From Anaeramoeba flamelloides (lineage: Eukaryota > Metamonada > Anaeramoebidae): 64,000 nt of DNA. The position numbers were made by a program, and so were the translations under genes. The notes below the pieces were generated by a model that had not been told where the DNA came from, ran no database searches, and was given only the letters and a program-made list of their open reading frames with translations. The stretch lies in the NCBI GenBank assembly GCA_027625915.1, contig JANTQA010000026.1, forward strand, positions 1,426,001 to 1,490,000, in the 5' to 3' direction. Below, in pieces: positions 1,432-61,037 of the stretch; position 1 is the first letter of the stretch; every line of letters begins with the position of its first letter.

Positions 1432-3723
1432 TTAATCTTTTCTAGGTCTGCCCTTTTTTTTTATCCAGGTGGGATAGACTCTATTACCATTCAAACATCT
1501 AATTTTTTCTGTTCGCCTTCTTTGGGCAAACCACCTGTTTACATGTATTATTGGAGTGTTTGATTGTTTTGCTAATTTTTTTTTAGTTTTAGAATCTGGA
1601 TAAGGACCTGTTTCAAGTTTACTTTTTTCTTGAAACCATTTTTCAAAAATGTTTCGAGCGCGCTCAGATGTAACCATCCTTTCTGAAACTTTTACTTCTT
1701 TTTTCATGGCTTTTTTTTTCAAATGAGAGTTAATCCCTTCCTTAAACTTTAATTTCCCATATTTCTCAAGCCTATTACACTGGCTTTGATTCTTGTGTTT
1801 ATTCTTGTAATTTTTATTTTTGTTCTGAATATGCTTTTGATCGTGTTCATTCTGATTATAATGAAGAATATTGCTATTAATATGATGTCTGCGGTGATGG
1901 CGGTGGCGGTGGTGATGACGGTGGTGATGGCGAACACGGCAGAGATGGTGATGATGGTTATGGCGTTTTTTTTTGTTTTGGTGACGGTGGTGACGATGGT
2001 GGTGGGTGCTCATAGATTTTTGATCATAATATGCAGAGATCTTTTTCTTCTTTCTATTTTTTTTTTCACTCTCTTTTTTCTTTTTGTTATTTTTTCTCTT
2101 TCCCATTCCCCTGTGAATGACCGTGGGGCATTGAAGTGGGGAAGAAGAAATCATCCTTAATTTTAAATTTGAAGAATTATTAATATTCTTCTGGTTAATT
2201 TGTTTTTTTAAATCATTATAATCAAATGATTTTGATCTTGGTACCTTAAAATTTAATCGAATTTTTTTGTTTTTAAAAAGTATATTTGGTGATTTGATCG
2301 AAATTATATTTTTTTTGATTTTATTTTTGTCAATTTTTGTAAAGTCATTGCCCTCATCGCTGAAACCGTTTCTACTATTCCCAAATACTTGTTCCTTCGT
2401 TCTTTCTCTTTCTCTTTTTTTCATAAATTTTGAATTGAATTCAAAATTCTCTTCGGATTCAGAAAAAGATTCTGATTCTGATTCTGACATTGATCTTGCT
2501 ATTGTGTCGGACATTGACTCAGGAATCGACGAAGAGATATATTCAGGGAATGATAAAGATTCACTGTTTGGTGAAAAATATTCTGAATTTGAAAGATTTC
2601 TTTTGTTAGGGTTTGAATTTTGTTTTGAATTTCTTTTCTTTTCTTTTTCTTTTTCTATTTCCTGATCTATTATTTTGATTTTTTCTTTTTCTTTTTGGAT
2701 TTTTTTGATTTTCTTTTTATTTTTAAACTTGGGCTTCTTTTTTTTGATTTGATAGCAATTTTTTTGAGATGCTTTTTTGTTCAAATTGCCACCATAACCC
2801 TTTTCACTAAAATAAAAATATTGTCCTTTTTTTTTAAATTTCAATATTTTTTTTCGTTTTCTGGAGTTCAGTTGGCTAGAATTAATCCCTAAGGGATTTA
2901 ATTTAAATTTTAATAAATCGCCAAATTCGTTACAATTAGTCTTTTCAATGTTTGTTTGCAAATTCGTTGAAGTTTTCGGTATTTCGTTCTTTACTTTAAA
3001 ATTATTGGTATTCATGGATCTGCCACTTTTGGAAAGTTGTTTGTAGCCTGAGGAAGATGTTGGTTGTGAAGAATAATTATTTTTCCAATTCTTGTTTAAA
3101 TTGTTTAAATGATTTTCGTTAATTGGGTTCTTATTCCCTTCTTTATTACTAACGAAATCTGAAGTCTTTTGAAATTGTTTTTCTTTTTTGGTTGATTGAT
3201 TTTTTTTGATGGGAAGTGGATCTTTTTTGAAGAATATCTTCTTTTGATCGTTTTGTTTCGTTTGTTTATTGTGTCTCTTCATTTCTTCAATTTCTGGCAG
3301 TGCTTGATTTTCAAAGTCATTTTGTTGGTTTTCTAAATCCAAAATGGTAATTTGCTCTTTGTTTGGATCAAAAAGACTGAAAATTGATAAATTTGTTGAA
3401 TCATCATAAAAATGGTTTGGGGCAACACTCTCTTGATCATATTCAAACTTAAACCCATCTGCTTTTTTGTTCCAAAGATCTTTGGGGTTCATGTTGTGGC
3501 TTATGTCTGTTTCTTGTGGTGGTGGAAAGGAGGTAAAATAATTATCATTTTCGAGGTGATACATATTTTGCATTGATTCTTTTGGGGCGTGTTCTTGTTC
3601 AAAAAACGGTGATGGCAATAGTGACGAAGAAACGTTTGTGCTTTGAGAAATCAAATTGTCTTGTGCAAAATCGTTTTCAATTGGCCAGTTAAAACTAGGC
3701 AGATCATTATCGAAAATGGACAT
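1432..3723 (-). CDS. TALE-like homeodomain protein with C-terminal AT-hook
   Basis: Single-exon ORF of 763 residues, probably a nuclear DNA-binding protein. Residues about 684-742 fit a homeodomain: NIFEKWFQEK for helix 1, a GPYPDSK loop with the PYP signature of TALE-class domains, then HVNRWFAQRRRTEK for helix 3. The W48-F49 and R53 positions are kept, but position 51, nearly always Asn in homeodomains, is Gln (residue 734). The protein ends in KKKGRPRKD, an AT-hook-like core. The N-terminus is acidic and aromatic (MSIFDNDLPSFNW) and could activate transcription; this is inference. Between lie Lys-rich, Ser/Glu-rich (about 395-430) and His-rich (about 574-615) low-complexity parts. The start at 3723 is the first Met of the ORF. 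A related gene lies 4.5 kb away on the same strand (8248-10994), suggesting an old tandem duplication. Confidence 0.8.
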   Translation of the reverse strand: MSIFDNDLPSFNWPIENDFAQDNLISQSTNVSSSLLPSPFFEQEHAPKESMQNMYHLENDNYFTSFPPPQETDISHNMNPKDLWNKKADGFKFEYDQESVAPNHFYDDSTNLSIFSLFDPNKEQITILDLENQQNDFENQALPEIEEMKRHNKQTKQNDQKKIFFKKDPLPIKKNQSTKKEKQFQKTSDFVSNKEGNKNPINENHLNNLNKNWKNNYSSQPTSSSGYKQLSKSGRSMNTNNFKVKNEIPKTSTNLQTNIEKTNCNEFGDLLKFKLNPLGINSSQLNSRKRKKILKFKKKGQYFYFSEKGYGGNLNKKASQKNCYQIKKKKPKFKNKKKIKKIQKEKEKIKIIDQEIEKEKEKKRNSKQNSNPNKRNLSNSEYFSPNSESLSFPEYISSSIPESMSDTIARSMSESESESFSESEENFEFNSKFMKKRERERTKEQVFGNSRNGFSDEGNDFTKIDKNKIKKNIISIKSPNILFKNKKIRLNFKVPRSKSFDYNDLKKQINQKNINNSSNLKLRMISSSPLQCPTVIHRGMGKRKNNKKKKESEKKNRKKKKISAYYDQKSMSTHHHRHHRHQNKKKRHNHHHHLCRVRHHHRHHHRHRHHRRHHINSNILHYNQNEHDQKHIQNKNKNYKNKHKNQSQCNRLEKYGKLKFKEGINSHLKKKAMKKEVKVSERMVTSERARNIFEKWFQEKSKLETGPYPDSKTKKKLAKQSNTPIIHVNRWFAQRRRTEKIRCLNGNRVYPTWIKKKGRPRKD

Positions 3724-5317
3724 CTTGTAAAAAGGGAATGAATGTAGTCAAGTGAAAAAAAAAAAAGATTTAGGAATTGTAAAAGCGTTTTGAGGATACG
3801 TTCTTTTTAATTTAAGACTCCTTTTCACAAAATTAATCAAAAAAGTAAGTGATGAAAAATGATTTTTTCGAAATTCTATTTGAAAACCCTTACTGTTTTT
3901 TTGTGTATAAAACTAAGTCTCAAAGAAAAAATACACCCCATATTTGGAATGGAAAAAATATTTGAATTGAAATGGAAAAAAGAGAAAAAAAATTCCTAGT
4001 TATAATTTTTTCTTCTTTGAACCATGAAACCCTAGAGAAATTCAAAAAATTGAATCCTATATACCAGAGTGTACTGTTGTCATTGGGTTAATATCGAAAA
4101 ATGAATTTATTTTGGAAAAAATGCCTTTTCATTTTCTTTGAAAAGTAAAAAAGATCAGAATCTTCCTTTTCTCTTAATTTTTTTTTTGTTCCAAAGCTTT
4201 GATTTTTTAGCTATTGGAAATAAAAAACCCGAGTTTGATAATTTAAAGAACTTAGTAAGAGAATAAGATGTTCCTGATTCCAATCTATCACCTATAAAGC
4301 CAAAAATAAATTCCAACAAAAAGTGTAACGAACTATCACTATTTCAAATTTTCAAGTTGACTGTGGGTTTTATAAAAGTTGGAAATGAGAATAAGTGGAC
4401 ACATTTTGAAAAAAAAGTTGATTAATTTGAAAAAAGGGACAATTATCAAAATAAGTCTTCTGGACTTTTTTAATATAAGTTTGAAAAGAAAAACCATTAT
4501 ACCATTATTTTGTGGAGGCCTATACATAAGTTTTTAAGGGAAGAGGTAACACAAAAGATTCTAAATACTATTTGTTTCATGATGTTGTATTCTTAAAAAA
4601 GGAAAACCCTTTTAATGAAGGACCAAACGTGGAAATTTTTATTAAACAATATTTAATTTTTGATAAATTTTTATATCTAAAAAAAACAAAAAATTTTAAA
4701 AAATAGAAACAATTTCAAAAATTTTGAACATATTTATTTCCTAATATAAATTTTATGGTATTTAGCTTCAAAATTGATTTAGGTGTTGATATTATATTAA
4801 ATAGTGAACCAAATATTTCATTGGAAGAAGAAGAAAAAAAAGTATTTTTTTTATTTTAAAAGATGGGTTTTATATTTTGTAAGCATTTTTTTATTTGATC
4901 AATGTATGAAGTTGACATTTAAATAAAAAAATATATCTAATACAAAAAATAGTAAATTTACAGGCATTAACATAGTCTTAAGAAAAAATTAAAATTATTT
5001 TTTTTTTTTTTGAATGGAATCTTCATAAGTAAACTTTTGATAAAGAAATGGAATTTTTTTGTTTGTATTATGAGAAATAATATATTAAAATAAGAGTAAC
5101 AAATCATGCTGAATTTCTCAATATATTTCAAATTATACATAGAAAAAGAATAAATGAATATATATATTCAAAAAAATCTTTAAAATTAGTAAATTATTTG
5201 TAATTCTGAATATTGTTTTCTTAATCCATATCTATAGTTTCCAAAATTACTTTTTCTTGTGAATTTTTATAATCAAAAATTTTTTACTATTTCGAATCAT
5301 AATATTAAAATAATTCA

Positions 5318-5515
5318 ATGGGATATATTTTTATCAACACTAATCAGTTTTTAAAGTCTCTTCAAGAATTATTTTACAAAAAAAATAATTACCTTTTAAA
5401 TCATTTCGTGGAATTCAAAAAAGAATTTTTTAACAATAGTGTAAAAATTAGATTATTTAAATCTTTTATAATACCACAATTGAAATATGGGTTACAATAT
5501 ATAATTATGAAATAA
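5318..5515 (+). mobile_element. Non-LTR retrotransposon (LINE) reverse-transcriptase remnant
   Basis: A 65-codon open stretch reads MGYIFINTNQFLKSLQELF followed by a KKNNYLLNHF segment and then VKIRLFKSFIIPQLKYGLQ. This matches the C-terminal part of non-LTR reverse transcriptases: a 'YLGVxI' start, a helix-rich spacer and the 'K..L.KS.I.P.L.YG' block after the catalytic core. No catalytic YADD box is present, so only a short piece survives. A similar decayed segment lies on the minus strand at 37198-38290. The identification rests on pattern only; the short AT-rich context makes chance resemblance possible. Confidence 0.45.
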
Positions 5516-6599
5516 AATCCCTAAAGTATTTAAATTTTGGATTAATTTGTGTATTGCCCAAATACGTAAAATAAACAGAAGCATATCAATACATATTTAC
5601 ACAATTAAATTTACAATTAAAAATATGGTAATTCCAGTAAACAAATACAAATTTAAATTCAAAAATAAATTAGGAAAATTATCTCTTCCTAATTTAGAAG
5701 AATAAATAAAATTTAACCCACGAATAAATAGTAAAATCAATAATCTATCAAATATTTCCAAAAATACCCGAAAATCGAAAATACCCGAAAATTTTAATTC
5801 ATTGCAAAAAGAAACTTTTTGAACAAAATTTAAGAAACCCTCATGTTCGATATACTCAGTTTAAAGTCAAATTTCGAATTTTATTGTAGAAAAAAATTTT
5901 TTCTGAAGATATCAAAATTCAAAAAAATTAAATTTTAGTGAATAGAGTATTCCAACGGATTTGTGTTAAGGGGTTAGTATCTTAGATGACTGTAACATTT
6001 CTGAAAGTTTCTAAATGGCATTAACTGATTGATAGAAAAGACACTTGTAAAGAAAATTTCAAATTGTGTATCATTTCTATAATTTTGTAATCTTAAATAC
6101 AATATAAAAATAACCAAGTAATATCTAATATTAGAACAGATACCGATAACCTACTAAAGATGACCCAAGTCAAACATTTTTCAAACTACCCGTTTCATAA
6201 ACAAAAATATCGTAATCTTAACATACCTATGTACTTCATATCAAACCCAACACAACGATTACCAATACCCTGGCATACATTTACGCTTAAGCCAATAAAT
6301 ACTAACAATTGTTTAAATATACTCAAAAGGTAACAATAAACTCTTTTGAGAGGCTTAAAGTAGAAAATATGGAAAATATATACTTTTTATTAAAGTAAAA
6401 TTGTTATATTAAGGTTAAACTTGGTATATTATCACTATAATTTCTTAGAAGTTACCCGTAACTTGTTTCAATGTGATTAAAAAAATTTCCCGTAATTTTG
6501 ATTTAGGGGTATTTTTGGGAATATAACAAACACCCAAAAATCAATTGGATGTCTTAAGATTCAATTGAGCTATAAAAAGAAATATATAAACACACATAT

Positions 6600-6909
6600 G
6601 ATGAGTCGCGGTCTTCTACTAGTTGTAAGTACTGTTAGATTTTTTTTTTAATTTGAGAAATAAAATCAAAATTTCTTTAATTATCTAAAAATTTTTCAAA
6701 TTAAAAAAAACTGATGTTAGCTATTCCAGGATTATAAATAATTGAGAAAAATCTGAGATTTTACTCTATTTTTTTAAATTCTGGAAAACTGTTCTTATTT
6801 TTTCTTGAGTTTTCTGTTTTATTTGTGAAAAAAAAAAAATAATAATTATAGATTAAAAAGAAAACCTTAAGTAAAGTTAAGCACTCTACAGTACTTACAA
6901 CACTCATCA
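6600..6909. mobile_element. Small non-autonomous TIR element (MITE-like)
   Basis: The outer ends are inverted copies: ATGAGT plus GTTGTAAGTACTGT on the left, and ACAGTACTTACAAC plus ACTCAT on the right. The left arm has about 15 extra bases between its two blocks. No coding potential is seen. The interior carries a CTTGAGTTTTCTGTTTTATT motif that also occurs in the palindrome-rich stretch at 36.9-37.2 kb. Size and structure suit a deletion derivative of a DNA transposon; the superfamily is unknown. Confidence 0.5.
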
Positions 6910-8247
6910 AAACATTTAAAAGTAATAAAATATCACTAATATTTATTTAAAACTCAAAAATATTTTTGTAATCCCTCAAGTTAAACAAAGCTAAAATTAA
7001 GAACATTTATTAACCGCCTAAATAGATATTACTATGTAATCAATAAAAATCCAAATAATTTTTTTCCGTTATGTTTAAAGTATAAACAGATAAAATTATT
7101 GAAAATATAGATCATTTTTATGGGTATTTTCTTCCTATAAAAAAGATTATTTATTTTTTCAAAATAAATTAAAAAAAAAAAACCTTAATGAAATACTTTA
7201 AAATTCTGATGGTTGGTAATTGTTTTCCTTAATTCATAATCTTGAAATATATGTTACCATGTTTAAATTTCTGAAAGGGGATTCAAGTCTAAGGATACCA
7301 AGATTCTAATTTACACTTCTTCAATAATAATAATAAGATTAAAACAGATTTTTTTGTGTGGTAAAAAAAATCTAATAAAAAAAAAAAAGGATTCTTTTGA
7401 TTCAATTCCAGAGCAATAAAATTTTTTCTTACAAGAAATCAGCATAACATTATCTGGATTAACAAAAAGATGTTTAAAACTAAAATCTCTTCTGAAGAAA
7501 AAACTAAAAAAATTATTTTCTGGAGAAATATTAAATTCTTTCAATTAATTTTAAAAATCTATTTATAAATAATTATTAATTTTGAGAATGATGATATTCT
7601 TTTAAAACCCCAATTTAAACGATAAATAAGTTGGAGCCTAATCATGGAAATAAAAATTTGAATAATTTTTTGGTTTTTAAGAAAAAAAGAATTATTTGAG
7701 GTTTTAATCGTAACAGAATTAAAATGTAAACTTTGGACATATCCTTACGGCGTCTTATGACAATCGTATTATGTAAGTGCTAAATTATCATCTCTCTACG
7801 AGAAAAAAAAAACATTGTCAAATATGATGCAACTTACTGTGATAATAAATGAAAAAGTAAAAACAATAATAAAAAAAGCAATAAAAGAAAAAAAATTATT
7901 GTAGCATGACTTTAAATATTAATAAATAACAATGTAAAAAAAAATTAACATTTTGAATAATTAAATAAAAATAATAATTAGAAAAAAAAAATTATGATCT
8001 ATCTTTTGGTTTGTATTAATAGTGTAATTTTTAAATTTTACAATATTCTTAATTCTTTGTGAGATAGACAAATAAAATAAAAATTAAAATATAAATTAAA
8101 ATATAAATTAAAAATAAAAGAAAAATTAAAATATAAATTAAAATTAAAATACAAATTCAAAGAAGAATGAAAGGAAAAAATAAAAGAAATTGAAAAAGAA
8201 AAAGAAAAAGAAATTGAAAAAGAAATTGAAAAAGAAAATTAATAAAT

Positions 8248-8472
8248 TTAATTATTTAATTGATTTTTTTCATTTTTTTCATTTTTAGATTGCCTAGATT
8301 TTTCAATTCTTCTTCGTTGACGGAACCATTTTTGGATTTTCAACTCAGAAACACCTGTGGTAAAAGACAAGCCATCTCTAGTTCGTAAATCTGGATATGG
8401 AATTGATTCACCGTCATAATTTTCTTGAAACCAATTTTCAAAAACACTTTTAGGATGTTCACCAATTCTTAA

Positions 8473-8509
<37 letters not shown>

Positions 8510-10994
8510 CGAATTTTTAATTAACTTTTTTTTACCGGCTACTAATTTAAAGATTTTAGGTTCCATCATTACAATTTCATTGACATTGGTATTATCATTA
8601 TCATTATCATTATCATTATCATTATCGTTATCATTATCATTATCTTGGTCTTTTTCTCGCGGGTTTCGTCTCATATTCGATTTACTCCTAAACTTGATTG
8701 TTGAATTGATTCTTGGTGATCTTTTTGGTGATCTGGAATTTTTAAAACTCCTTTTTGGTGATCTGGATTTCCTTGTTCTTTTTGTGGTTGAATTATTTGT
8801 ATTTGTAGAGCGTGTATTTAAATTCAAAGATTTGATAGCTTTATTATAGCCAATAGTCTGTGAATTTCTTTTTGGGGATCGAGAATTTTTAGATGACCTT
8901 TTTGGTGATCTTGACTTTATTGAATTTCTTGACGACCTTTTTGGTGATCTTGGATTCTTAAAACTCCTTCTTGTTGCTTTTTTTTTTTTTGTTTTTGAGC
9001 AAGAATTTTTTGGATTTGTTGGCTTTGAATTCAAAGATTTGATGGCTTTATCGCTGCCAATAGTCTGTGCATTTCTTTTTGGGGATTTGGAACTTTTAGA
9101 TAACCTTTTTGGCGATCTGGACTTTATTGAATTTCTTGACGACCTTTTTGGTGATCTCGAATTCCTTGGTGCTTTTGTTGGCTTTGCATTTTTCGTTGAT
9201 TTTGATGTTTTAATAGATTTTAAGGATTTACCATTTTTCAGGCTTTTTGCCGTACTTCTTTTTGTTTTTGTTTTCTTTTTTTTTTTCTTTTGAGGAGAGG
9301 AATCTTTGGGAATCTGGAAATTTGTGTATTGGAATGGGATTGGGGATCTATTCCTTTTTCTAATTGATCCCCCATTCATTTTCTTATTATTTTTTTTGTT
9401 TTTTGATTTGCCCTTTTTTCCATTTTTTCCTTTTTTTTTTGTTTTTTTGATTTTGTCGGCTTTGTCTGTTTTTTTCATTTTTTTGATTTGCCCTGTTTTT
9501 TTTATTTTTTCATCTTTTCCTGTTTTTTCCATTTTCTCCGATTTTTCTGTTTTGTTTGTTTTTTCTGGCTTGTCTGTTTTTTCGATTTTCATTTTCTTAT
9601 TATTTTTTTTATTTCCTTTATTCTTTTTTTTCTTTTTTTTCTTAGACTTGGCGGGTTTTGTAGCCTTTATTGGCTTTGTCGGTCTTATTGTCTTATTCAG
9701 TGATTTCTTGATCTCATCAATTTTCTTTTTCAAAAATAAATCTAAAACAATGTCGTCTTCAGTTTCTCTTCTCCTCCGTGTTGCAAGCTTGATTTTCTTT
9801 TGCGGAACACTGCTTTTTCTTGTTCTTTTCGTTTTTTTGGGCTTCTTTGGTTTTTTGTTTTTGCCTGTTTTGATCGACTTCGTACTCTTATCAGTGATGC
9901 TTAGCATCTTCAATGAATTCCTTGTCTCAATAAGTAAGGATTCAACAGATCGCGATCGGACAAGATAAGGATTTTCTTCTTTGATTGTTTTGATTGTTTT
10001 GATGGAGTGCTTTTTTGTTCGGTTTTTCTTTTTTTTTTTTTTTTTTTTTTTTTTTTGCATTTTTCTTTTTTGTGTTTTTTCCTTTCTTTCCGTTCACCCC
10101 TGCTTTTTCTTTTTTTTCTTTTTTTTCGTTTTTTCCTTCCTTCTCTTTCCTTTCTTTCTGGTCTTTGTTTTCTTTTGTTACGTTTTTTTCCTTTTTTCCA
10201 TTCTTTCCATTCTTTCCTTTCTTCCCCTTCTTCCCCTTCTTCCCCTTCTTCCCTTTCTTCCCTTTCTTCCCTTTTTTTCCATTTTTTCCGTTCTTTGTGT
10301 TCTTTCCGTTTTTTTTTTTTTTTTTTTTTTTTTTCTTCTTTTTTTTTTTTTTTTTATTTTTAATTTTGTTCTCATTTTCTTCCGTATTAAAATCACCATT
10401 CTCATTTTCATTTTCATTCTCATTCTCATTGTAATTCTCGTCATCATTTTCATTTTCATTTTCATTTTCATTTTCATTATGTTCATCGTGATCATTTTCG
10501 GCAAAGCAATTACCATTTTCAAGTTCAATTGGGGACTTATCCACAAGTGGAATTTGTTGTGGATCAAGAAAAAGATCGAGTTTCTCGTCCGCAGCTAACC
10601 ATGTTGTTTTTTGTTCACAGTTCCTTTCGATCATGATCGGCTCAAGGTTAATTTTCGAAATAACACCAATGTTTGAATTGTTGTGAGTTGAAATTGGTGT
10701 AATGTAATTGTTTGCTGTATGTAAATTGTTGAGATCGTTTTCTTCAAGCGATCCCATTTCGATTTCATCTGCTTGATGAAACGGGTCCCATTCTTCATTC
10801 TCGAAATTTAAGTTATTTAAATCAAACGCAAGAGACACCTCGTTCAGTTGGAAGTTGAAAAGGTTTGTGTCCTTCCAAGGATGTGTAAAAACTTGTGGTA
10901 AATTGGTCCCAAAAGTTGGAATTTCTTCATTTAAAATTGGACTATTGCAGATTTTTCTTGGATCTTCTTTTGATCCGAGTGATGCTGTCTTCAT
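8248..10994 (-). CDS. Second TALE-like homeodomain protein, reading frame interrupted at two poly-lysine tracts
   Basis: Three overlapping minus-strand frames appear to form one gene. The N-terminal frame starts at 10994 (MKTASLGSKEDPRK, then an acidic/aromatic part and an Asn/Glu-repeat, Lys-rich part). The middle frame (to 8459) is Lys/Ser-rich with eight SPKR motifs and a DNDN run. The last frame, ending at 8248, encodes VFENWFQENYDG, an IPYPD loop and KIQKWFRQRRRIEK: a homeodomain closely like that of the gene at 1432-3723, again with Gln at position 51. The frame changes fall in T runs (10029-10056 and 8475-8509 on the plus strand) that encode poly-lysine. Joined, the protein would be about 900 residues. 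Homopolymer miscounting in the assembly is the simplest cause; a real frameshift or slippage is possible. The layout (acidic N-terminus, basic middle, C-terminal homeodomain) matches the neighbour. Confidence 0.7.
8475..8509. repeat. T35 homopolymer inside a coding region
   Basis: A run of 35 T on the plus strand reads as poly-lysine on the minus strand. The open frame upstream of it ends just after the run (stop at 8459-8461), while the homeodomain frame downstream is offset by one base. Run length therefore decides whether the homeodomain is attached. Confidence 0.85.
10029..10056. repeat. T28 homopolymer inside a coding region
   Basis: A run of 28 T marks the overlap of the N-terminal frame (ending at 9942) and the middle frame of the second homeodomain gene. 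Both frames read lysine through the run and differ afterwards, so the run is the natural place for the change of frame. Confidence 0.85.
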
Positions 10995-14186: not shown

Positions 14187-14719
14187 AAAATTCAAAATTA
14201 TCCACAAAGATAAAACTGTTCCAAAGAATCATAATAATACAATTTCATTCAAATTGGAAATAATTTTGATTTTTGTAAAATATGAAAATCATTTTTTCAT
14301 CTTTTAGATTTTGTTTTCATTTTGTTTTTTGAATTACTTAACCTTTTTTCGTACTATCAATTTTTTTTTTCAACAATTGATAGTAAGCTAAAGTCAAGTT
14401 CTTTTCAAAATAGAAGAACTCAACTAAAATTAGTTGGTATTATCTAGCATTTGATCAATCAATATTTGTTAATAGAATTTTTACAAATCTTTCACCAATG
14501 TATTTTCTTGTTATACACTCTCCAAAATTTTTAACACACCCATTGATTGATTTGTATTGATAATTATTTATTTATTTTTTTGTGGGTATTTTCATCTATT
14601 ACCAAAATTAACATTTCAATTAGAGAACGGTTCTAATTTGGTATTTGTTCTTGAATTGATTAAATAAGTTTTTTTTTTTCACAAATAGAATTTTATCATG
14701 TTAAAATTTTTGAATTGGG
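14187..14719 (+). mobile_element. Dispersed repeat family 1, copy 1 (about 0.53 kb, TIR)
   Basis: One of four copies (also 20253-20777 reversed, 42481-43012, 55993-56515). Shared landmarks in order: AAATTCAAAATT at the start, ATACAATTTCATTCAAATTGG, AAAATCATTTTTTCATC, AAAATTAGTTGGTATTATCTA, TCTCCAAAATTTTTAACACA, then a closing TTAAAATTTTTGAATTGGG. The two ends are imperfect inverted copies of AATTCAAAATTTTYMACACA, with a further inverted copy inside. There is no long ORF. It looks like an old non-autonomous DNA element. It lies upstream of the RasGEF gene. Confidence 0.7.
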
Positions 14720-15332
14720 ATTTATTTTGGATTAAATGAAGAGGTTAGAAAAAAAAAAGGAGGAAAAAGAGAATACGAAAAACTAAAAAAGAGCATAGAA
14801 AGATAGGAATCAAAAACAAATAATAGGAAAAAAATTAAATTTATTAGATTATTGTTCGATTTATAAATTTGAGTTTTTAAGGAGTATTTGAATTTTTTCC
14901 CTTTCTTTAATAACGTGATATTTCATATCGACAAAATATTTTTTATGGTGATGTGTGTTCCCTATATTTTTATTTTCCTTAGCAATACACCTACATCTTC
15001 TTTGACAATGAATATGAAGATATTTTTTATTTTTTTAATTCCATTTTCCATTGTTTTTAAGTTCTTTATATTCCCAAAAGAAATACTCTATTTTACCAAT
15101 TATTGACATTATGGATATATTTTGGATTTTGTCGCTTTTTAATTTGTTTGTAAATATAATTAGATCTTACTGAAGAAATAAATAAGAGAATTATCAACTC
15201 CCAAACCCTTATCAAAACACATAGCACTTTGAACATCAATTGCAAAGGTAGTCCTTAAAAAATATTAATTCGAACTTCTCCAAAACATAAATCATTTTTT
15301 GATTTTTATAAAAATACTTAATCTTACAAGAA

Positions 15333-21300: not shown

Positions 21301-23091
21301 AAATTTGGATTAGCAAATATTTAATTGATCCTGATAAGAAATTTTTACAATATTTAAAAGAATTTATAAAAGAGGATTTACACCAATCATTACCTTCATT
21401 ATCAGAATTATTAATTTCAAAAATTGAAACGATTGAAAAGCAAACTGGTAAACAAAAAATTGTTAAATTTACAGAAAAGCCCCCACAACCTATCGTTCCA
21501 AAAAATATTTTTTCACAGACCTTATCAATTTTTGATGTTAATGAATTAGAAGTTGCCAGACAAATTACATTAATTGAACAAAAAATTTATTCAAAAATTA
21601 AAGTAATACCCTATTTTTTTTTTTTTTTACAAATATAAATTTTTATTTGGCATTTTAACAAGCCTTAAACCGACGGAAAAAGATTTAAATTTTCCTGAAT
21701 TAAAAAAAAAATTAAAGAGTAATTTATATAATAAAATAATTATAATAATTTAACTTAATACAGCTATTTTTAAAAAAGTGTGTACTAAAAGTTTTCAAAA
21801 GTGTTAATCAAACTGCTCGAAAGAGTAAATAAGAGCCTGAGTAACACTTTTGAAAACTTTTTTAAAACACTTTTAAAAACTTTTAAACATTTTTTTTACA
21901 ACAGCTGTAAAATTAAAAGTTTTTTAAATAAATATTTATATGATAATTTCTTTTTATGAATGCAAAACAAAAATATTCACATTGACTAATGGATTGAAAA
22001 TTTTAATTTTTTAATAAAATTGGAAAAAAATTCATATTCCCATCTTACAAGTTTAAAGATGCTTTTTATTTATTTTTTTCGAGAAGAAAAAATAGCAAGT
22101 TTACTTCTCTTACAATAAAGTCAATTAATTTAAAACAAAAACAAAAAGTAATAAAAATATAATTTCATATAAAGGTAATGAACTTCTTCGACATATTAAA
22201 AGATTTATTATTTTGATCGTCGATTAAAATACTAATCCCATACAAATAAATGATAAAAAAAAAAAAAAAAAAAGAGTTTGTCAAACAAAAAATTTCATTA
22301 TTTTTCAACTTTCAAGTTATATAGAAAATTGTATAACAATAAAATTGAATAATTTTTCTGTTAAATCCACAATCAATTATTTTTTATTTAAAAAAAAAAT
22401 ACTTTCAAAACAAAAAAAAAAAAAAAAAAAAAAGCCTAGAGAATTACTTAATTTGGCATGGAGTAAAGCAAAATATAGGCATCGAGCACAAAATGTATTA
22501 CGTTTTATCCAACATTTTAACCAATTATCTGGATGGGTCTCAACGGAGATTATTAAAGGTGAAACAATAAGAAAGAGGGTATCAACTGTAATATATTTTA
22601 TTAATTTGGCCGAGCATCTTCGTAAATTAAATAACTTTGATTCCTTAATAGCAGTTTTATCGGGATTAAAATCTTCGGCGGTTTATAGATTAAAATTCAC
22701 TTTTCAAGATTTACCAACAAAACAAACAGAAACAAAAAATCGCTTAGATTCAGAAATGTCTTCAGAGCAATCTTATAAAAAATATAGAGGAATACTCCAT
22801 GCTGCAAATCCACCATGTATTCCTTATCTTGGGGTTTATTTAACAGATCTTACATTCATTGAAGATGGTAACCCAAACAAAATTAATGGATTAATTAATT
22901 TTTCAAAAAGACAATTGGTATACACAGTAATCGAAGAAAATCAACGATATCAATCAAAGCCATATTCGTTGCAACCAGTTCATCAAATTGCCACAAGACT
23001 TGAAAAATTACAAGTCACAGACCATCAAGAGTTATATAAAAAATCATTAAAAAGAGAACCAAGAAAGTCTAATAGAGAAGATATTTTATAA
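15333..23091 (+). CDS. Ras guanine-nucleotide exchange factor (LisH-like, REM and RasGEF domains), four exons
   Basis: Predicted to activate Ras-type GTPases at membranes by GDP/GTP exchange. Exons: 15333-15752, 18000-18562, 20951-21602, 22435-23091 (phases 0, 2, 0), giving 763 residues. Residues about 60-130 are a Lys/Glu/Gln-rich coiled-coil-like stretch. Residues about 237-265 (DTVTQLIMHHLVALGYQ) resemble a LisH dimerisation motif, found in some Dictyostelium RasGEFs. Exon 3 has the REM/RasGEF-N block (LNKLIAKLTDEN, FLKTFLLTYQSI) and the start of the catalytic Cdc25 domain (EVARQITLIEQKIYSKIK). Exon 4 continues PRELLNLAWSK, NVLRFIQHFNQLSGWVST, NFDSLIAVLSGLKSSAVYRL and PPCIPYLGVYLTDLTFIEDG, ending at a TAA. 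The catalytic domain looks complete. Introns of 2247, 2388 and 832 nt contain dispersed repeats, so the middle exons are easy to miss. The start is the first Met; an earlier non-coding exon cannot be excluded. Confidence 0.85.
15753..17999 (+). other. RasGEF intron 1 (2247 nt)
   Basis: Starts GTAATT and ends AAAAAAG; phase 0. Only low-complexity sequence and a family-2 dispersed repeat (16400-17690) are seen within it. Confidence 0.75.
16400..17690 (+). repeat. Dispersed repeat family 2, copy A (about 1.3 kb)
   Basis: Longest of four copies (24770-25640 reversed, 39270-39975, 43430-44480). Landmarks: TTTAAACCAATAAAATG, AAATGAAATCTTGTTGAGAT, GAGTTAACCTCATTTAAAC, AATTGTTTGGCATTATTCAC, TTTTGAATTTTGAAGGATAA, AAATTCCCAAAT-type blocks and AATTATCTCAAAAAAGAAAA. 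The copies share block order but have diverged by many substitutions and indels. No ORF or confident termini are visible. It lies wholly within RasGEF intron 1. Confidence 0.7.
19022..19213. repeat. 192-bp island of higher GC bounded by a perfect 13-bp inverted repeat
   Basis: The ends are AACAATCACCTTG and CAAGGTGATTGTT, exact reverse complements. The interior (TGACGAGTTTGACCTGGAAG, GAAGAACGACGATT, AAGGGGATCCAAAACGAGG) is clearly richer in G and C than surrounding intron. No ORF spans it. It could be a small TIR element, part of a larger decayed element or a structured RNA; nothing decides between these. Confidence 0.5.
20253..20777 (-). mobile_element. Dispersed repeat family 1, copy 2 (reversed)
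   Basis: Reverse-orientation copy starting CCCCAATTCAAAATTTTTAA and ending GTGTGGAAAATTTTGAATTT, with the same internal blocks as 14187-14719. Its two ends show the terminal inverted repeat of the family clearly. It sits in RasGEF intron 2, ending 173 bases before exon 3. Confidence 0.75.
21603..22434 (+). other. RasGEF intron 3 (832 nt)
   Basis: Starts GTAATA and ends in a long A run followed by G; phase 0. Splicing joins IYSKIK directly to PRELLNLAW, the continuity expected in the Cdc25 domain. A near-perfect inverted repeat lies at 21771-21874. Confidence 0.8.
21771..21874. repeat. Hairpin-forming inverted repeat, arms about 33 bp
   Basis: Left arm (from AAAAAAGTGTG to TTCAAAAGTGTTA) and right arm (from TAACACTTTTGAAAACTTTT) are reverse complements with few mismatches, separated by about 36 bases containing GAAAGAGTAAATAAGAGCC. 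Weaker symmetry extends outward to CAGCTATTTT and ACAGCTGT, so this may be the core of a small MITE of about 150 bp inside the intron. Confidence 0.6.
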
Positions 23092-26878: not shown

Positions 26879-29800
26879 TTATTTACGTCTTTTCTTATAT
26901 CTAGAATTTCTTTTTGTATTGCCTTTTGAATTATTTCTTGCATTTCTTTGGTCCTTTTTCATTCTTTTATCAACTGATTTGACTCTGTTGAGGAAGCCTT
27001 TCTTCTTTCTACCTGAAGTAGTTTTACCACCACCCTTGCTACTAACGATATAAATTTTATTAACCTTTGGTTTTTGTTTTGCTCTGCCATACATTTTTTG
27101 GATTTGTCTTAATTTTGAATAATTATTGAGATCATTATTTTCTAAAATGGATGTAGCCCTTCTACGAATTTGTTCCAGTTTTAACATTTGTTTTCTTTTC
27201 TTTCTTGCTTTAGCTTCGATTACCTTTTTAATTGGGCGTGCATTGATTTCCATTGCCCTGCGCTGGAGATCCATGATAAAGTCTTTGTCCATTGGCTTTG
27301 TTCTAATTCTGTGTTCGGCTTCTTCATCATTGAACCAACTTGGTATGTCGTCGTCATTAAAGGCAAATTTATTATAGGATTCGTCAATCAGTTTACGTTT
27401 CGATTTTTGGTTCACTAATCGCGGTCCTAAGCTTAACGCTCTTTGTGTTTTAGGATCTTTTGGATTCAAGTAAATTCTTGATATTTTATTTGGATCGTCA
27501 TCGTCGTCGTTGTTGTCCTTGTCTTTTTTTTTTTTCTCCTGATCCTTTTTCTTGCTAGTTTTTTCTTGATCGCGATCAGATTCATCATCGCTTGAATCAG
27601 AGTCTTTATTGAATTTGATATTCGATGGCACGTCTTGTTGTTTTTTATTTTTAGATTTAATTTGTTCATATTCTTTGGAAATTTGTTGTAATTTTGATTG
27701 CTCTTCTTTTAACTTTTTTCGATCCATTTTCTGTTTTTTGTCTCGGTATTCTTGTGCCAATTTAAGGATTTCTTCTGTTTCGTCTTCAGAATCAATTTCG
27801 TCGAATAATGGATTATCAAACCATTTTTCTTTAATTCTTTGCGTTCCCGAGGCCTTGCCCCTTTCATCAAAGGAAACCACTAGCGGATTTATTTGCACTT
27901 CTTCGTCACTATCGCTGCTTTCGCCAACTGGCTTTGATAATTCGTCATTATCTGAAAGCTGTTTCGATTTTGATCGCAGTTTTGATTTTTCCTTTTCAAA
28001 TTCTTCACCAACCATCCCTTCAATTTCCCAAAAATTCTGGGAAACTTTAGGTTGGTATTCTTTGGCAAGTCGGCTGTTTTCGTCATATAGCCCTTTGGCC
28101 TTTTTCCTTCTCATAACATTTTCTTTGTACACATTATACATTCGATCCAATCCCTTTTCTAACTTGTACATATCTGTTTCTTCATCATCGTCCCTTTTAA
28201 AAGTAATGTCCTCCTCGCTGTCAGAATTTGTATAATTGCCGTCCTGTTCTTCAAAATGCTCGTCATATAATTCATTAATGTTCCCCACTTGCTTATTCAT
28301 TTCGGATTCCTTGACCTTGGAAATTTTCTCAAAATCTTGAGAATTCTCGACTGTTTTTAAATTAAAAAGTTGATGATCTTGATTAATTTCAAATAAATCT
28401 GCTGGTGTGATCATTCCATAGGCCAACCTTTCTTGGTATTTGACTTTCATTTGCTTTTCTTTCTTTTTCTTTCTTCTTACTCTTCTTTTGTCTAAGAGCT
28501 CCAAAAAGCTCAATTTTTCTTTAATTTCTTTATTAATGCTTTCTTCTTCCTTTTCATCATCGCCATCCTCACCTTCATCCTCATCCTCGTCTTCTATTTC
28601 TTGGATCAGTTTTTTATTTTCATTTTCGTTCTCGTTTTTAGCTTTTTCTTTTAATAACAAATTTTTAACTAATTTTTCTGTTTCCAAAATTTTTTTACGC
28701 CATTTTAATAACAGTTTAAAATCGTATTTTCCGATTCTTTTAAGATCTTTACACAAGGCCTTAATTGCTTGTGTCGTTGCTGGATGACCAGCATATCTAA
28801 TCGATTCTTCATCATCAAAGGATAAGACATGATATTTTGAAATAATTGCAATTGGCTCACTACTGTTAATAAACTCTGAAACTTTAACTGTTCGAGACAT
28901 TGGTACACCTGCCTCGTACCCCTCTCGATTACGTGTTTTTTTTTTGAATTTCATTTTTAAAATATTTTCATTTTTCTCTTGCTCGATCTCTTTAAAAATA
29001 TATTTTGGTTCAAACATTCGATCATCGATTTTTTTGGGTGCCTTATAGCCTCGGCAGATTACATAAATTTCTGCTGACGTTGTTCTTGATGCTCTTGGCT
29101 TTGTGGCAGTGACGACTTCAAAAAATTGATGAAATACCCAAAGCAAACTGTTGTAATCTTGTGAGCGAAACACCTTTGTGACATAGATGCCACCAACCCT
29201 CAAAAATTCACACGCCAATTTTGTGGCGACTAATGTTAACTCACTTTGTGAATACGCATCCTTAACCCATGCTGAACCAACATTTGGAGAACCATCATGA
29301 AGAACACTATTGGTGGAATTGTGTTTTTATTGTTTTTATTTTGTTTGTATTTTTGAGTATTAATGATAATGTTAAGTTAATATTGTTGTGGTTTTGTTTT
29401 GAGAAATTTGTTTTTTTTTTTTTTTTTTGGTTTTGTTTGTTGATCTTTTTGAATAATGCAACAAAAGAATGGTGGGGCAGGAGAAGGGGAAAGTAAAAGA
29501 AGAAGAAGAAATGAAAAGTTTTTACACATCAATTTTATAATTTTTAAAATGTTTTTTCAGTTCTTGCCTACAGTGTTTAGTTGTAATGTCTGACTTTATT
29601 GTTTTACATCTTGGTATTTTTTTCATTTGAACAAGATCTACCCCAACTATTAAACTACTAACTGGCATATATTTTGCCGCTACTTGCAACCTATTATTTG
29701 AAGAGATATGTTATTATTTTTTAAAATTGAAATTTTTGTTTCAGATTAATTCACCATAATTTGAAAAGATTACGTAATAAAATAAAAATATTATTAAAAA

Positions 29801-30827: not shown

Positions 30828-31547
30828 TTATTTTTTTCCTTTCTTTTTTGGTTGTTGTTTCTTCTTTGGCTGTTGCTTCTTTTTTGGTTGCTCTTTTTTT
30901 TTTGGTTGTTGCTTCTTTTTTGGTTGTTTTTTTTTCTTTTGTGTTTTTTCAACTTCCATTCCCTTTTCCAAGTCTTTATGTAAATTGGTGGTCATAAACT
31001 TTTCTCTCTTTTCAAGAACACGTTTGTTTCTTCTTTCACGTGCGCTCTTTCTCTTTTCAATTCGTGCCTGTGCTTGTTGTTCAAGTTGCTCTTGCCTAAT
31101 TTTTTCTGCTTTAGCTCTGTGAATGTGTTCAATCAAATTTCTTTTGTTTTTGAATTCATTACCTTTTGCTTTTAAGTAAAGTTCGTGATATGTATGACGA
31201 TCGATTTTTCCAGAGTCTCTATATTTCTTCAATAATCTTCTCAAGATTCTAATTCTTCTGATCCACAAGATCTTTGGTGGCATACGTGTCTTTTTGGTTC
31301 CTTTTCTTTTACCTAACCCGGTGTGTCTTCCTTTTCTTTTGGCAATTAGTCTTTTTCTGAATCTTGTTCTGGAGACCGCATTTTCGGGCTTTTTGATGAT
31401 TAAACCATCACGGTGGAGCTTTCGAATGCTTCTTCGAGAGTTGGACATGGAGATGGTTTGGATTTCATTAGGATCTAACCAGACTCTTCTTTTACCAACA
31501 CCAAGTACTGATGAGGCTAATCTTTTTTGGAGTTTTAAAGATACCAT
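30828..31547 (-). CDS. 60S ribosomal protein eL19
   Basis: Component of the large ribosomal subunit, cytosolic. A single uninterrupted exon of 239 residues starts [18 protein letters not shown] and shows the family blocks [67 protein letters not shown] and [17 protein letters not shown]. The core is complete. The protein is about 40 residues longer than the human one because of a C-terminal tail made of repeated QPKKK-type units (about six, positions about 205-239). The tail adds strong positive charge and may contact rRNA; that is inference. No intron is needed. Confidence 0.97.
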
Positions 31548-58961: not shown

Positions 58962-61037
58962 TTATTTATTATCCAAGTAACCAACATATTTTAAAGCATT
59001 TACAAGTATGGAATCAAATTCAAATTGGCCTTTTAAAACCCACGAAAAGCTTTTCAGCATGGAATAAGGCCAACAATTAAAAAGGATTATTCTACCATTT
59101 TTGAGAGGGTCTGAACAATCGACTATCATGGGCTGATCAGAATCCCATTGTGCCACCGTTATCATTGGCTTTGAATGAGAAACCTTTAGGTACGAAGATT
59201 TAACAACGATATTTCTAAGTTCAATATTTGATAAAATGGGGTGGGTGTCCTTTCTTGACATTGAAATTCTTAATTCTTTATATTTTAGCCCCTTTCCATC
59301 TGTGTGCGCTAAATAACCATCTGCAAGGAACCTTCCACGTATTTGGGAATCTGTAGTAAATGCAAAGGTTGAAAATGCAATTAGACCATTCCCAACATCG
59401 ATGCATTGTGAAATATAGTTTCCCAAGGATTCTGGGTTTAAATATTTGACTCTTTTGTTTGATTCGGAAATTAAAATTATATCACGTGCTGGCCTTGGTT
59501 CTGGATAACTAGTACTTTTACACGGATTCAGGAATTGATAATTTTGAATTCCAAGTTGTGTAAACAGTGGCTGATAAATATTTAATTCTTCTTCTTCTCC
59601 ACTTGAACTTATAATAATAATTTTCGTTTGTAAACTATAAGGTTTTAAATATGATGTGTCGAGTTCTGTTTGAATACGAAAGCTCTCTGTTTCTTTCCCC
59701 TTTTCCTTTTCTTTTTCCTTTTCCTTTTCCTCCCCCCCTCCCTTTCCTCTTTCCCTTCCCCTTCTACTTTCCTTTTTCATTTCCTTTTCCTTTTCCTTTT
59801 CTTTTTTTCTTACCCTTCCATTTCCCATTTCTTTTTTTTTCCCATTTACATTTTCTATTCCTTTATCCCTTTCTCTACCCTTTTCCCTTTTATGAATATT
59901 ATAATGATTGTTTAAAATATTACCTTGCTCTCCAAAGGCAATTTCAATAGCTTCATTAAAATTATTGTTACCCTGATCCATTTCATTAAAAGTTTTATTT
60001 TCAGAATTCATTTTGGTAAAATTCGATGAATTAAAATCAAAATTTAGATCTTTAGATAGGCTTCTCTCTCTTGGCCGTTTATTTACTTTTGCCACCCTGC
60101 TTGTACGTGTTGTGATTTTTTCTTTTTGGCTATATAACTTATGTAAACGGATTGAATTTTCAAACAGCAAATCTGAATCAAATACATTAGATTTTTTTAA
60201 TTCAACAAGATCTTCAAATTTCATTAAATCAATCCGAATCAATGGAACCAAGTCTTTGAGAATTTCTTGGATTGTTACATGACTTTTTTCGTTCATATTT
60301 CTATTTTTGTTTTTGTTTTCGTTGTCAACTTTTTCTTTTTCTTTTTCTTCTTCGATGTCGACATTTAATTCTTCTTCCTCAATAATATTATCATCGTCAA
60401 TGTTTTTACCTTTGTTGGCGTTTCTTAACTTTAACTGTCTTTTCCCCCAGTTATAAATCGAACGAAACAATTGGATTTCTGTTGCTACGATCGATTTTGA
60501 TTGAAGAATATTTTTTATTGTTTCATGTTTTAAATTGTTTAACGTTGATTCGTTTTCAAGGATTTTGTTTGAATTACGATAAAAATAATTCGTCGCTAAA
60601 TCTTTTAATGGCTTTAAGTTATACTTTTCACCAAGCAATAAAAATTTAATACAATTCTCATTCATAATCTCTTTTTTGATTTCTTCAAGAACCAACATTA
60701 ACAATTTGTCGATTTGAAATTTAATACTAAGTCCCAAGAGACCCTCAATTTCCTTCGGATTAATTATCAAAGATCTTGTGTAAATGAACTTTAAAAATGA
60801 AGAAAATGTGTTTGGTTCAACACCAGGTATCTCGATCAAAATACTATTGCTTGGTTCTGGTTCTGTTTTCCAATTCTGTGGGTACAATCGCTTCTTCAAA
60901 ACCGGGGATGCTAAGCTTAGTATTAAACGATGGCAATGAAATTTTGTTCCATCCTCACCAACTTGCAAAGTTACATCAGACAATTCTTCGTCATTAATTA
61001 ATTTATGGTAGACCTTGTATAAAGTTTCAAAATTCAT
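58962..61037 (-). CDS. BTB-BACK domain protein with C-terminal ThuA/GATase1-like domain
   Basis: Single-exon 691-residue protein, probably a dimerising adaptor, possibly for a Cullin-3 ligase. Residues about 10-120 are a BTB/POZ domain (ELSDVTLQVGEDGTKFHCHR, LILSLASPVLKKRL, PNTFSSFLKFIYTRSLIINP). A BACK-like helical part follows (CIKFLLLGEKYNLKPLKDLA, ETIKNILQSKSIVATEIQLF, RSIYNWGKRQL). Low-complexity Glu/Lys/Asn parts lie at about 215-260 and 390-460. The last 220 residues (about 471-691) are ordered: TKIIIISSSGEEEELNIYQP, ARDIILISES, CIDVGNGLIAFSTFAFTTDS, KDTHPILSNI and GRIILFNCWPYS ... LVNALKYV. This spacing (beta-strand start, GNGLIxF, HPI, GRxxxxNxxP, final NAL.YV) resembles ThuA/class-I glutamine-amidotransferase-like folds, but I see no clear nucleophile Cys, so it may be non-catalytic. 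The BTB call is strong; the C-terminal call is tentative. Confidence 0.85.
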   Translation of the reverse strand: MNFETLYKVYHKLINDEELSDVTLQVGEDGTKFHCHRLILSLASPVLKKRLYPQNWKTEPEPSNSILIEIPGVEPNTFSSFLKFIYTRSLIINPKEIEGLLGLSIKFQIDKLLMLVLEEIKKEIMNENCIKFLLLGEKYNLKPLKDLATNYFYRNSNKILENESTLNNLKHETIKNILQSKSIVATEIQLFRSIYNWGKRQLKLRNANKGKNIDDDNIIEEEELNVDIEEEKEKEKVDNENKNKNRNMNEKSHVTIQEILKDLVPLIRIDLMKFEDLVELKKSNVFDSDLLFENSIRLHKLYSQKEKITTRTSRVAKVNKRPRERSLSKDLNFDFNSSNFTKMNSENKTFNEMDQGNNNFNEAIEIAFGEQGNILNNHYNIHKREKGRERDKGIENVNGKKKEMGNGRVRKKEKEKEKEMKKESRRGRERGKGGGEEKEKEKEKEKGKETESFRIQTELDTSYLKPYSLQTKIIIISSSGEEEELNIYQPLFTQLGIQNYQFLNPCKSTSYPEPRPARDIILISESNKRVKYLNPESLGNYISQCIDVGNGLIAFSTFAFTTDSQIRGRFLADGYLAHTDGKGLKYKELRISMSRKDTHPILSNIELRNIVVKSSYLKVSHSKPMITVAQWDSDQPMIVDCSDPLKNGRIILFNCWPYSMLKSFSWVLKGQFEFDSILVNALKYVGYLDNK

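Follow-up and report, generated by a model that had tools for sequence, protein, structure and literature searches.

Two linked genes in a 64,000-nucleotide stretch of the Anaeramoeba flamelloides genome (contig JANTQA010000026.1, here C26; C26:1426001-1490000, the window) encode homeodomains, HD1 and HD2, from which the near-invariant Asn51 is absent and in which Gln stands in its place. They are part of a large, expanded family of Gln51 homeodomains within this one genome, lineage-specific as far as tested. The reading that we favour, and hold to be somewhat better than evenly probable from the sequences, is that these domains belong to TALE-related transcription factors in which Asn51 was replaced by Gln and helix 3 rebuilt, with DNA binding retained and its specificity altered. 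Its support lies in the predicted fold, the register of the Gln, Gln51 in 64/65 domains of the family's main block, purifying selection and differences from an Asn51 sister class; we infer from sequence that the Gln51 domains bind DNA, read bases and act in transcription factors.

Homeodomain genes of the window

The HD1 gene is a 763-amino-acid open frame on the reverse strand (1432-3723), rich in Lys, Asn and Ser and containing a His-rich stretch, with the homeodomain close to the C-terminus. The domain (1435-1683, reverse strand) has a GPYP loop and the helix-3 sequence WFAQRRR, followed by the tail PTWIKKKGRPRKD. Its Gln51 codon, placed by the register of the alignments to PDB domains, is CAA (1522-1524, reverse strand), and an AT-hook-like GRPRKD lies at the C-terminus (1435-1452, reverse strand, coordinates taken from the sequence). 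An AT-hook-like C-terminal tail characterizes the HD1 subfamily of six genes, reading GRPRK in five and GRPAK in one. The HD2 homeodomain (8248-8478, reverse strand) has a PYP loop, WFRQRRR in helix 3 and a CAA codon for Gln51 (8317-8319, reverse strand, from the sequence and a codon listing). The helices and PYP loops named in the original prediction were thus read again in both frames.

The remainder of the HD2 gene consists of a Lys-rich middle part with eight SPK[RK] repeats (8459-10060, reverse strand), a motif that prefers the AT-rich minor groove, and an N-terminal open frame of 350 amino acids with an ATG start and no Pfam family above cut-off (9942-10994, reverse strand). In the window assembly the homeodomain frame is discontinuous with these two parts, and the breaks fall at two long poly-T runs, one of 35 bases and one of 28. 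The 35-base run at the homeodomain break (8475-8509, forward strand) likely reflects an assembly error or slippage; the copy of the gene on contig C29 runs in a single frame from the middle part into the homeodomain. The N-terminal and middle frames overlap in different phases in both copies (window 8459-10994; C29:1696500-1698659, locus L115), and this phase change lies near a long poly-A/T run of 28 bases in the window and 27 in C29. Candidate explanations are an intron, slippage or an assembly error shared by the two copies.

The linkage of the two genes, which had been noted in the window, recurs on C29, where copies of HD1 (C29:1706735, an open frame of 744 amino acids) and HD2 (C29:1698432) keep the same order and orientation. 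The domains are 87% (HD1) and 92% (HD2) identical between contigs, and the DNA is 76-82% identical over stretches of 2.0-2.7 kb. Separately, window positions 14197-14725 are 76-79% identical to DNA beside another HD1 paralogue (C29:4106737-4109985), perhaps as a dispersed repeat. Other genes of the window encode a RasGEF (22345-23091), an Spb1 rRNA methyltransferase (26879-29218), ribosomal protein L19e (30828-31547) and a BTB/BACK protein (58962-61037). The window is A+T-rich (21-27% GC). The A. flamelloides genome is described as A+T-rich and as holding more than 1100 ribosomal-protein genes (PMC11550330); the 19 matches to ribosomal protein L32e that we count in it agree with that expansion.

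Register and predicted fold

Both domains exceed the Pfam cut-off for Homeobox_KN (24 bits), HD1 with 26 bits and HD2 with 26.3 bits, and HD2 is also above the cut-off for PF00046 (23.9 vs 22.9 bits). Near-invariant as Asn51 is in homeodomains, a profile match does not require it. A profile, A1, was built from 32 relatives, of which 31 are matched by Homeobox_KN and 28 by PF00046 (E ≤ 0.01). Against PDB domains, the A1 profile matched MATalpha2 best (1k61, E 3.7e-10), then Exd (4e-10), PBX1 and MEIS; ceramide synthase homeodomains were also among the matches. In all five hmmsearch alignments shown (MATalpha2 twice, Exd twice and PBX1), the query Gln occupies the Asn51 column with W48 and R53 in register. 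These alignments rule out a misregister of the Gln and uphold its original placement at position 51.

AlphaFold2 predicts three helices for A1 (residues 8-21, 32-42 and 46-65; mean pLDDT 86.5). In a Foldseek search of the PDB, MEIS1/2, Exd, PKNOX1 and PBX1 were among the best matches (probability 1.00, best E 0.0098); no match went down to E 0.001. The residues that mark the homeodomain fold are present in the aligned Gln51 rows (W48 and R53 in 64/64 each, F49 in 57/64), as is the TALE PYP at positions 24-26 (P24 in 63/64, Y25 in 60/64, P26 in 54/64). The loop is three residues longer than in PBX1, Exd and MATalpha2, which gives a domain of about 66 residues, and the family is therefore termed TALE-related rather than filed as TALE. 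Pfam searches of the two window genes detected no PBC, MEIS, KNOX or BEL upstream domain (E ≤ 1), no TLC domain as in the ceramide synthase class, and no domain besides the homeodomain above cut-off.

Genome-wide counts and classes

Six-frame searches of the genome (254,072,379 bases, 76 contigs) with Homeobox_KN, HD1, HD2 and PF00046 gave 67, 70, 64 and 55 matches, respectively (E ≤ 0.01 for PF00046), at 99 distinct places, and three further searches (E ≤ 0.01) added five places: one with Gln51, three with Asn51 and one decayed relic (L120) that is left out of the counts. As products of six-frame searches these numbers are lower bounds, and they refer to places rather than genes, since some places are exons of one gene (at least one canonical TALE gene accounts for two, C13:15492091 and 15492237), relics or spurious. 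Among the first 99 places, helix 3 is readable in 95 (Gln51 in 65, Asn51 in 29, Arg51 in 1); three of the other four are apparently cut at exon ends, and the fourth, on C17, is probably spurious. For all 104 places, 99 have a readable helix 3, with Gln51 in 66, Asn51 in 32 and Arg51 in 1, where the 66 include a relic with upstream stops (L119).

The 65 Gln51 readings of helix 3 are WFGQRRR (48), WFAQRRR (6), WYGQRRR (4), WFRQRRR and WVGQKRR (2 each), and WMGQKRR, WFGQKRN and WFCQKRH (1 each); the Gln is encoded by CAA in 55 and CAG in 10. A sequencing error, against which the original prediction had only two copies to offer, is ruled out by 66 places and two codons. The main block comprises 65 domains including HD1 and HD2, 64 with Gln51, one with Arg51 (L041) and none with Asn51, and within this genome the suggested lineage family is borne out. 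The 29 Asn51 domains of the first 99 places fall into five WF[IT]NARR domains that resemble canonical TALE, ten WF[TSG]NQR[TSA] domains and a class of 14, called GPY, with [FY][FL]GNxR; GPY is the Asn51 sister class of the Gln51 block.

HD2 and its C29 copy have their closest relative in the exception, L041 (C29:6168830), which differs from them by about three amino acids at six helix-3 positions. The Arg51 codon of L041, CGA, is one base from CAA, and the domain has Lys54 and PDP in place of PYP; we take the Arg51 to be a later change, perhaps one of decay, and L041, L119 and L120 may all be decaying. A very divergent lone domain, L112 (C34:9656050-9656380, WFCQKRH), lies outside the block, and its other genome matches are weak (best E about 9e-4); its Gln51 may have an independent origin. 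In the GPY class (C37:9786734, C9:8705791 and others) Asn51 is kept, but residue 48 is Tyr or Phe and residue 49 is Leu (13/14), another altered "invariant" signature. A third class, compact and lacking the extended loop, is made up of the ten WF[TSG]NQR[TSA]RTP domains, at C76:942771, C29:6178549 and eight further loci.

Origin of Gln51

A first tree was computed from 91 rows with column 51 excluded and with L112 and L041 included. The residue-51 labels are strongly clustered on it (0/500 shuffles scored as low), and the Gln51 rows form a single clade in 0/200 bootstraps. The Gln51 label requires three changes, because the long-branch L112 joins the Asn51 rows and L041 sits inside the block, where it accounts for one change by itself. 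For a second tree, of 83 rows, three Asn51 domains (L116-L118) were brought in, and L112, L119, the ten WF[TSG]NQR rows and partial domains were dropped. In this tree a branch with SH-aLRT 89 sets the Asn51 rows apart, and one change separates Gln from Asn; the tree is unrooted and was made by a quick method from few columns with SH-aLRT as the only support measure, and its support is moderate. Asn51 is taken as ancestral because it is near-universal elsewhere, the tree giving no root. Going from Asn (AAC/AAT) to Gln (CAA/CAG) takes two base changes, so many independent origins are less likely, and on this phylogenetic evidence Asn51 probably changed to Gln once for the main block.

Selection on the recognition helix

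Across the 64 Gln51 rows, besides the invariant W48 and R53, R54 occurs in 63, R47 in 62, R52 in 60 and G50 in 56; other contact residues are kept in similar fashion (Arg at homeodomain position 5 in 62, Y25 in 60, R31 in 53). Position 55 is basic in 29/29 Asn51 rows; in 65 Gln51 rows it is Arg once and Lys never. Nei-Gojobori counting over 25 mutual-best paralogue pairs drawn from the 64 rows gave a pooled, domain-wide dN/dS of 0.11, with single pairs ranging from 0.010 to 0.268; between the window and C29 the ratio is 0.166 for the HD1 pair and 0.056 for the HD2 pair. Positions 47, 48, 50, 53 and 54 together have 26 synonymous differences and 0 nonsynonymous ones (284 sites), where the rate in the rest of the domain (203 nonsynonymous differences in 3922 sites) predicts about 15 nonsynonymous ones. 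There are zero nonsynonymous differences at each position from 45 to 54. That at position 51 follows by construction, because the rows were chosen for Gln, and a recount left this position out and allowed L041 in, although L041 enters no mutual-best pair.

Few parts of the domain are as constrained as the recognition helix, a pattern that loss of DNA binding would not predict. Relaxed or dead domains as the general case are ruled out by the dN/dS values and the helix-3 counts. The constraint extends beyond the DNA-facing positions; since it spans all of 45-54, contact with a protein or RNA partner could likewise account for it. Arg47 is found in the ten Asn51 WF[TSG]NQR domains as well and is therefore not tied to Gln51. 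The altered recognition that had been proposed for the two window domains gains support, at the level of sequence, from residues 47 and 55, where the Gln51 block has changed compared with its Asn51 sister class, and from the strong conservation of helix 3.

Proposed DNA recognition by Gln51 domains

Asn51 and an adenine are joined by two hydrogen bonds in nearly every homeodomain complex, and R55 of TALE proteins reads the G of TGA. In the reading that we favour, Gln51 would have come with Arg or Lys at 47, Arg at 52-54 and the absence of a basic residue at 55, as set against the Asn51 sister class, residue 50 being small (Gly/Ala) or Arg in the block. The homeodomain fold and DNA binding would have been kept after Asn51 was replaced. 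The retained Arg5, Tyr25, Arg31, Trp48, Arg53 and Lys/Arg57 would supply minor-groove and phosphate contacts, and Gln51 would read the major groove together with Arg47 and Arg54. Because the carboxamide of Gln is that of Asn set one methylene further out, adenine or a neighbouring base is probably still read. The helix may be set slightly differently, giving a specificity other than TGAC/TAAT: a different short site, read by R47, Q51 and R54 in a style nearer to MATalpha2 than to PBX. Counting against this reading are the lost function, or presumed lost DNA binding, of N51Q mutants of other homeodomains, the Arg51 of the close paralogue L041, the presence of Arg47 in Asn51 domains and a conservation that covers all of 45-54. 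AmphiVent1 N51Q is reported to lose reporter repression (PMC3033397) and Hoxa3 N51Q is described as not binding DNA (PMC4947829); inactivation by a single N51Q fits the favoured reading if the additional changes are needed for binding, and equally supports its rivals.

One such rival holds that the homeodomain has weak, largely non-specific affinity for DNA and that targeting falls to partners or other motifs, a view that we consider unlikely but give appreciable weight. The candidates are the AT-hook-like tail, the SPKR repeats, the P-x-W tail, or heterodimers with the Asn51 sister class in the manner of MATalpha2/MATa1. GRPxK tails occur in 6/64 Gln51 members, a K/R-P-x-W tail just after helix 3 in 58/64, and the HD2 gene has its eight repeats. 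The suggestion of other DNA contacts in the original prediction has partial evidence, namely the tail in the six-member HD1 subfamily and the repeats in HD2. A PDB entry is titled as a complex of MATa1/MATalpha2-3A on DNA. Presumably Asn51 is among the three alanines of MATalpha2-3A. According to a review, MATalpha2 and MATa1 singly are without strong DNA-binding affinity, and Hoxa3 N51Q is reported to retain wound-healing activity, for which its authors invoke partners (PMC4947829). The AT-hook-like tail is, however, missing in 58/64 members, yet R47 is kept in 62/64 and R54 in 63/64. If bases did not need to be read, drift would be expected at positions 47 and 50, and neither changes in 25 pairs.

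The same conservation bears on the proposal, which we judge improbable, that Gln51 domains no longer bind DNA and that their fold, as in ceramide synthases, has been turned to another use, here the binding of protein or RNA. The remaining DNA-contact residues are kept, zero amino-acid changes fall at 45-54 in the 25 pairs, and the two window genes have no other domain above the Pfam cut-off. In its favour, N51Q serves in experiments as a change that removes DNA binding (PMC3033397, PMC4947829), and ceramide synthase homeodomains are among the PDB matches, where the homeodomain is reported as not essential for enzyme function (PMC4901127). That the family is an artefact, through sequencing error, misalignment or pseudogenes, is very improbable: 66 places have Gln51 in two codons in a register fixed by W48 and R53, pair dN/dS runs from 0.010 to 0.268, and the open frames among the HD1 matches listed are 290 to 1008 amino acids long except that of window HD2 (90 amino acids), whose break at poly-T runs is, with the relics L119 and L120, what speaks for it. 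In its fullest form, the favoured interpretation is that the Asn51 constraint was escaped by an Asn-to-Gln change with compensating helix-3 changes, giving a new read-out code, and that amplification then carried this code into more than sixty transcription factors of a single protist; we give this an even chance. If true, the "invariant" Asn51 is dispensable for homeodomain DNA recognition.

Comparison with known homeodomains

Our searches of the open-licence literature brought up no paper recognised as describing a natural Gln51 homeodomain, nor any whose title or opening abstract concerned Anaeramoeba homeodomains; within these searches the Gln51 family stands as a variant of the known homeodomain for which no description was found. 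The search for relatives outside this genome covered viral and prokaryotic contigs, and of 42 viral and 43 prokaryotic pattern matches none was related by tblastn. An older survey of 346 homeodomain sequences, as quoted in PMC2211742, had Asn51 without exception. A 2015 paper (PMC4901127) puts homeodomains in fungi and single-celled organisms at "usually less than a dozen", with 25 in Acanthamoeba, and the roughly one hundred homeodomain places found here (104) are far above these counts. An amplified, natural N51Q-type family under strong purifying selection provides a direct test of a change in the recognition code, with the Asn51 sister class as a control within the same genome.

Ceramide synthase homeodomains lack Asn51. 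Unlike the Gln51 family, they are located in membrane enzymes (PMC4901127). Human SEBOX, with Lys51, has likewise lost the near-invariant Asn, but is a single divergent gene and possibly a pseudogene (PMC2211742); neither it nor the ceramide synthases form an expanded family with one substitute under selection. The N51Q forms of AmphiVent1 and Hoxa3 made in the laboratory (PMC3033397, PMC4947829) carry the identical substitution in a helix whose other residues are tuned to Asn51, whereas the Gln51 block differs at other helix positions too. Two further reports concern other changes: a Ubx with five contact residues altered, including Asn51, loses most chromatin binding (PMC4705621; not N51Q), and the Bicoid mutant described is N51A, not N51Q (PMC10911119).

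Among TALE proteins, yeast MATalpha2 is the best PDB match and has, like the Gln51 block, RRR at 52-54 and E-K at 56-57 (W-V-S-N-R-R-R-K-E-K). Unlike the block, it has Asn at 51 and Ser at 50, its residue 55 is basic, and its loop is shorter by three residues. The PBC and MEIS proteins (Exd, PBX1, MEIS1/2, PKNOX1) share the fold and the PYP loop, and PBC also Gly50 (PMC4901127). Exd and PBX1 differ in Asn51 and in loop 1, which is three residues longer in the window family, and PBC and MEIS proteins have a PBC or MEIS domain of which Pfam finds none in the window genes (E ≤ 1). The Asn51 GPY class of the same genome has the extended loop, ending in GPY/GPF in 14/14, and the tail (P in 12/14, W in 13/14), and is set apart from the Gln51 block by Asn51, a basic residue 55 in 14/14, Tyr/Phe48 and Ser, Thr, Asn or Ala at 47.
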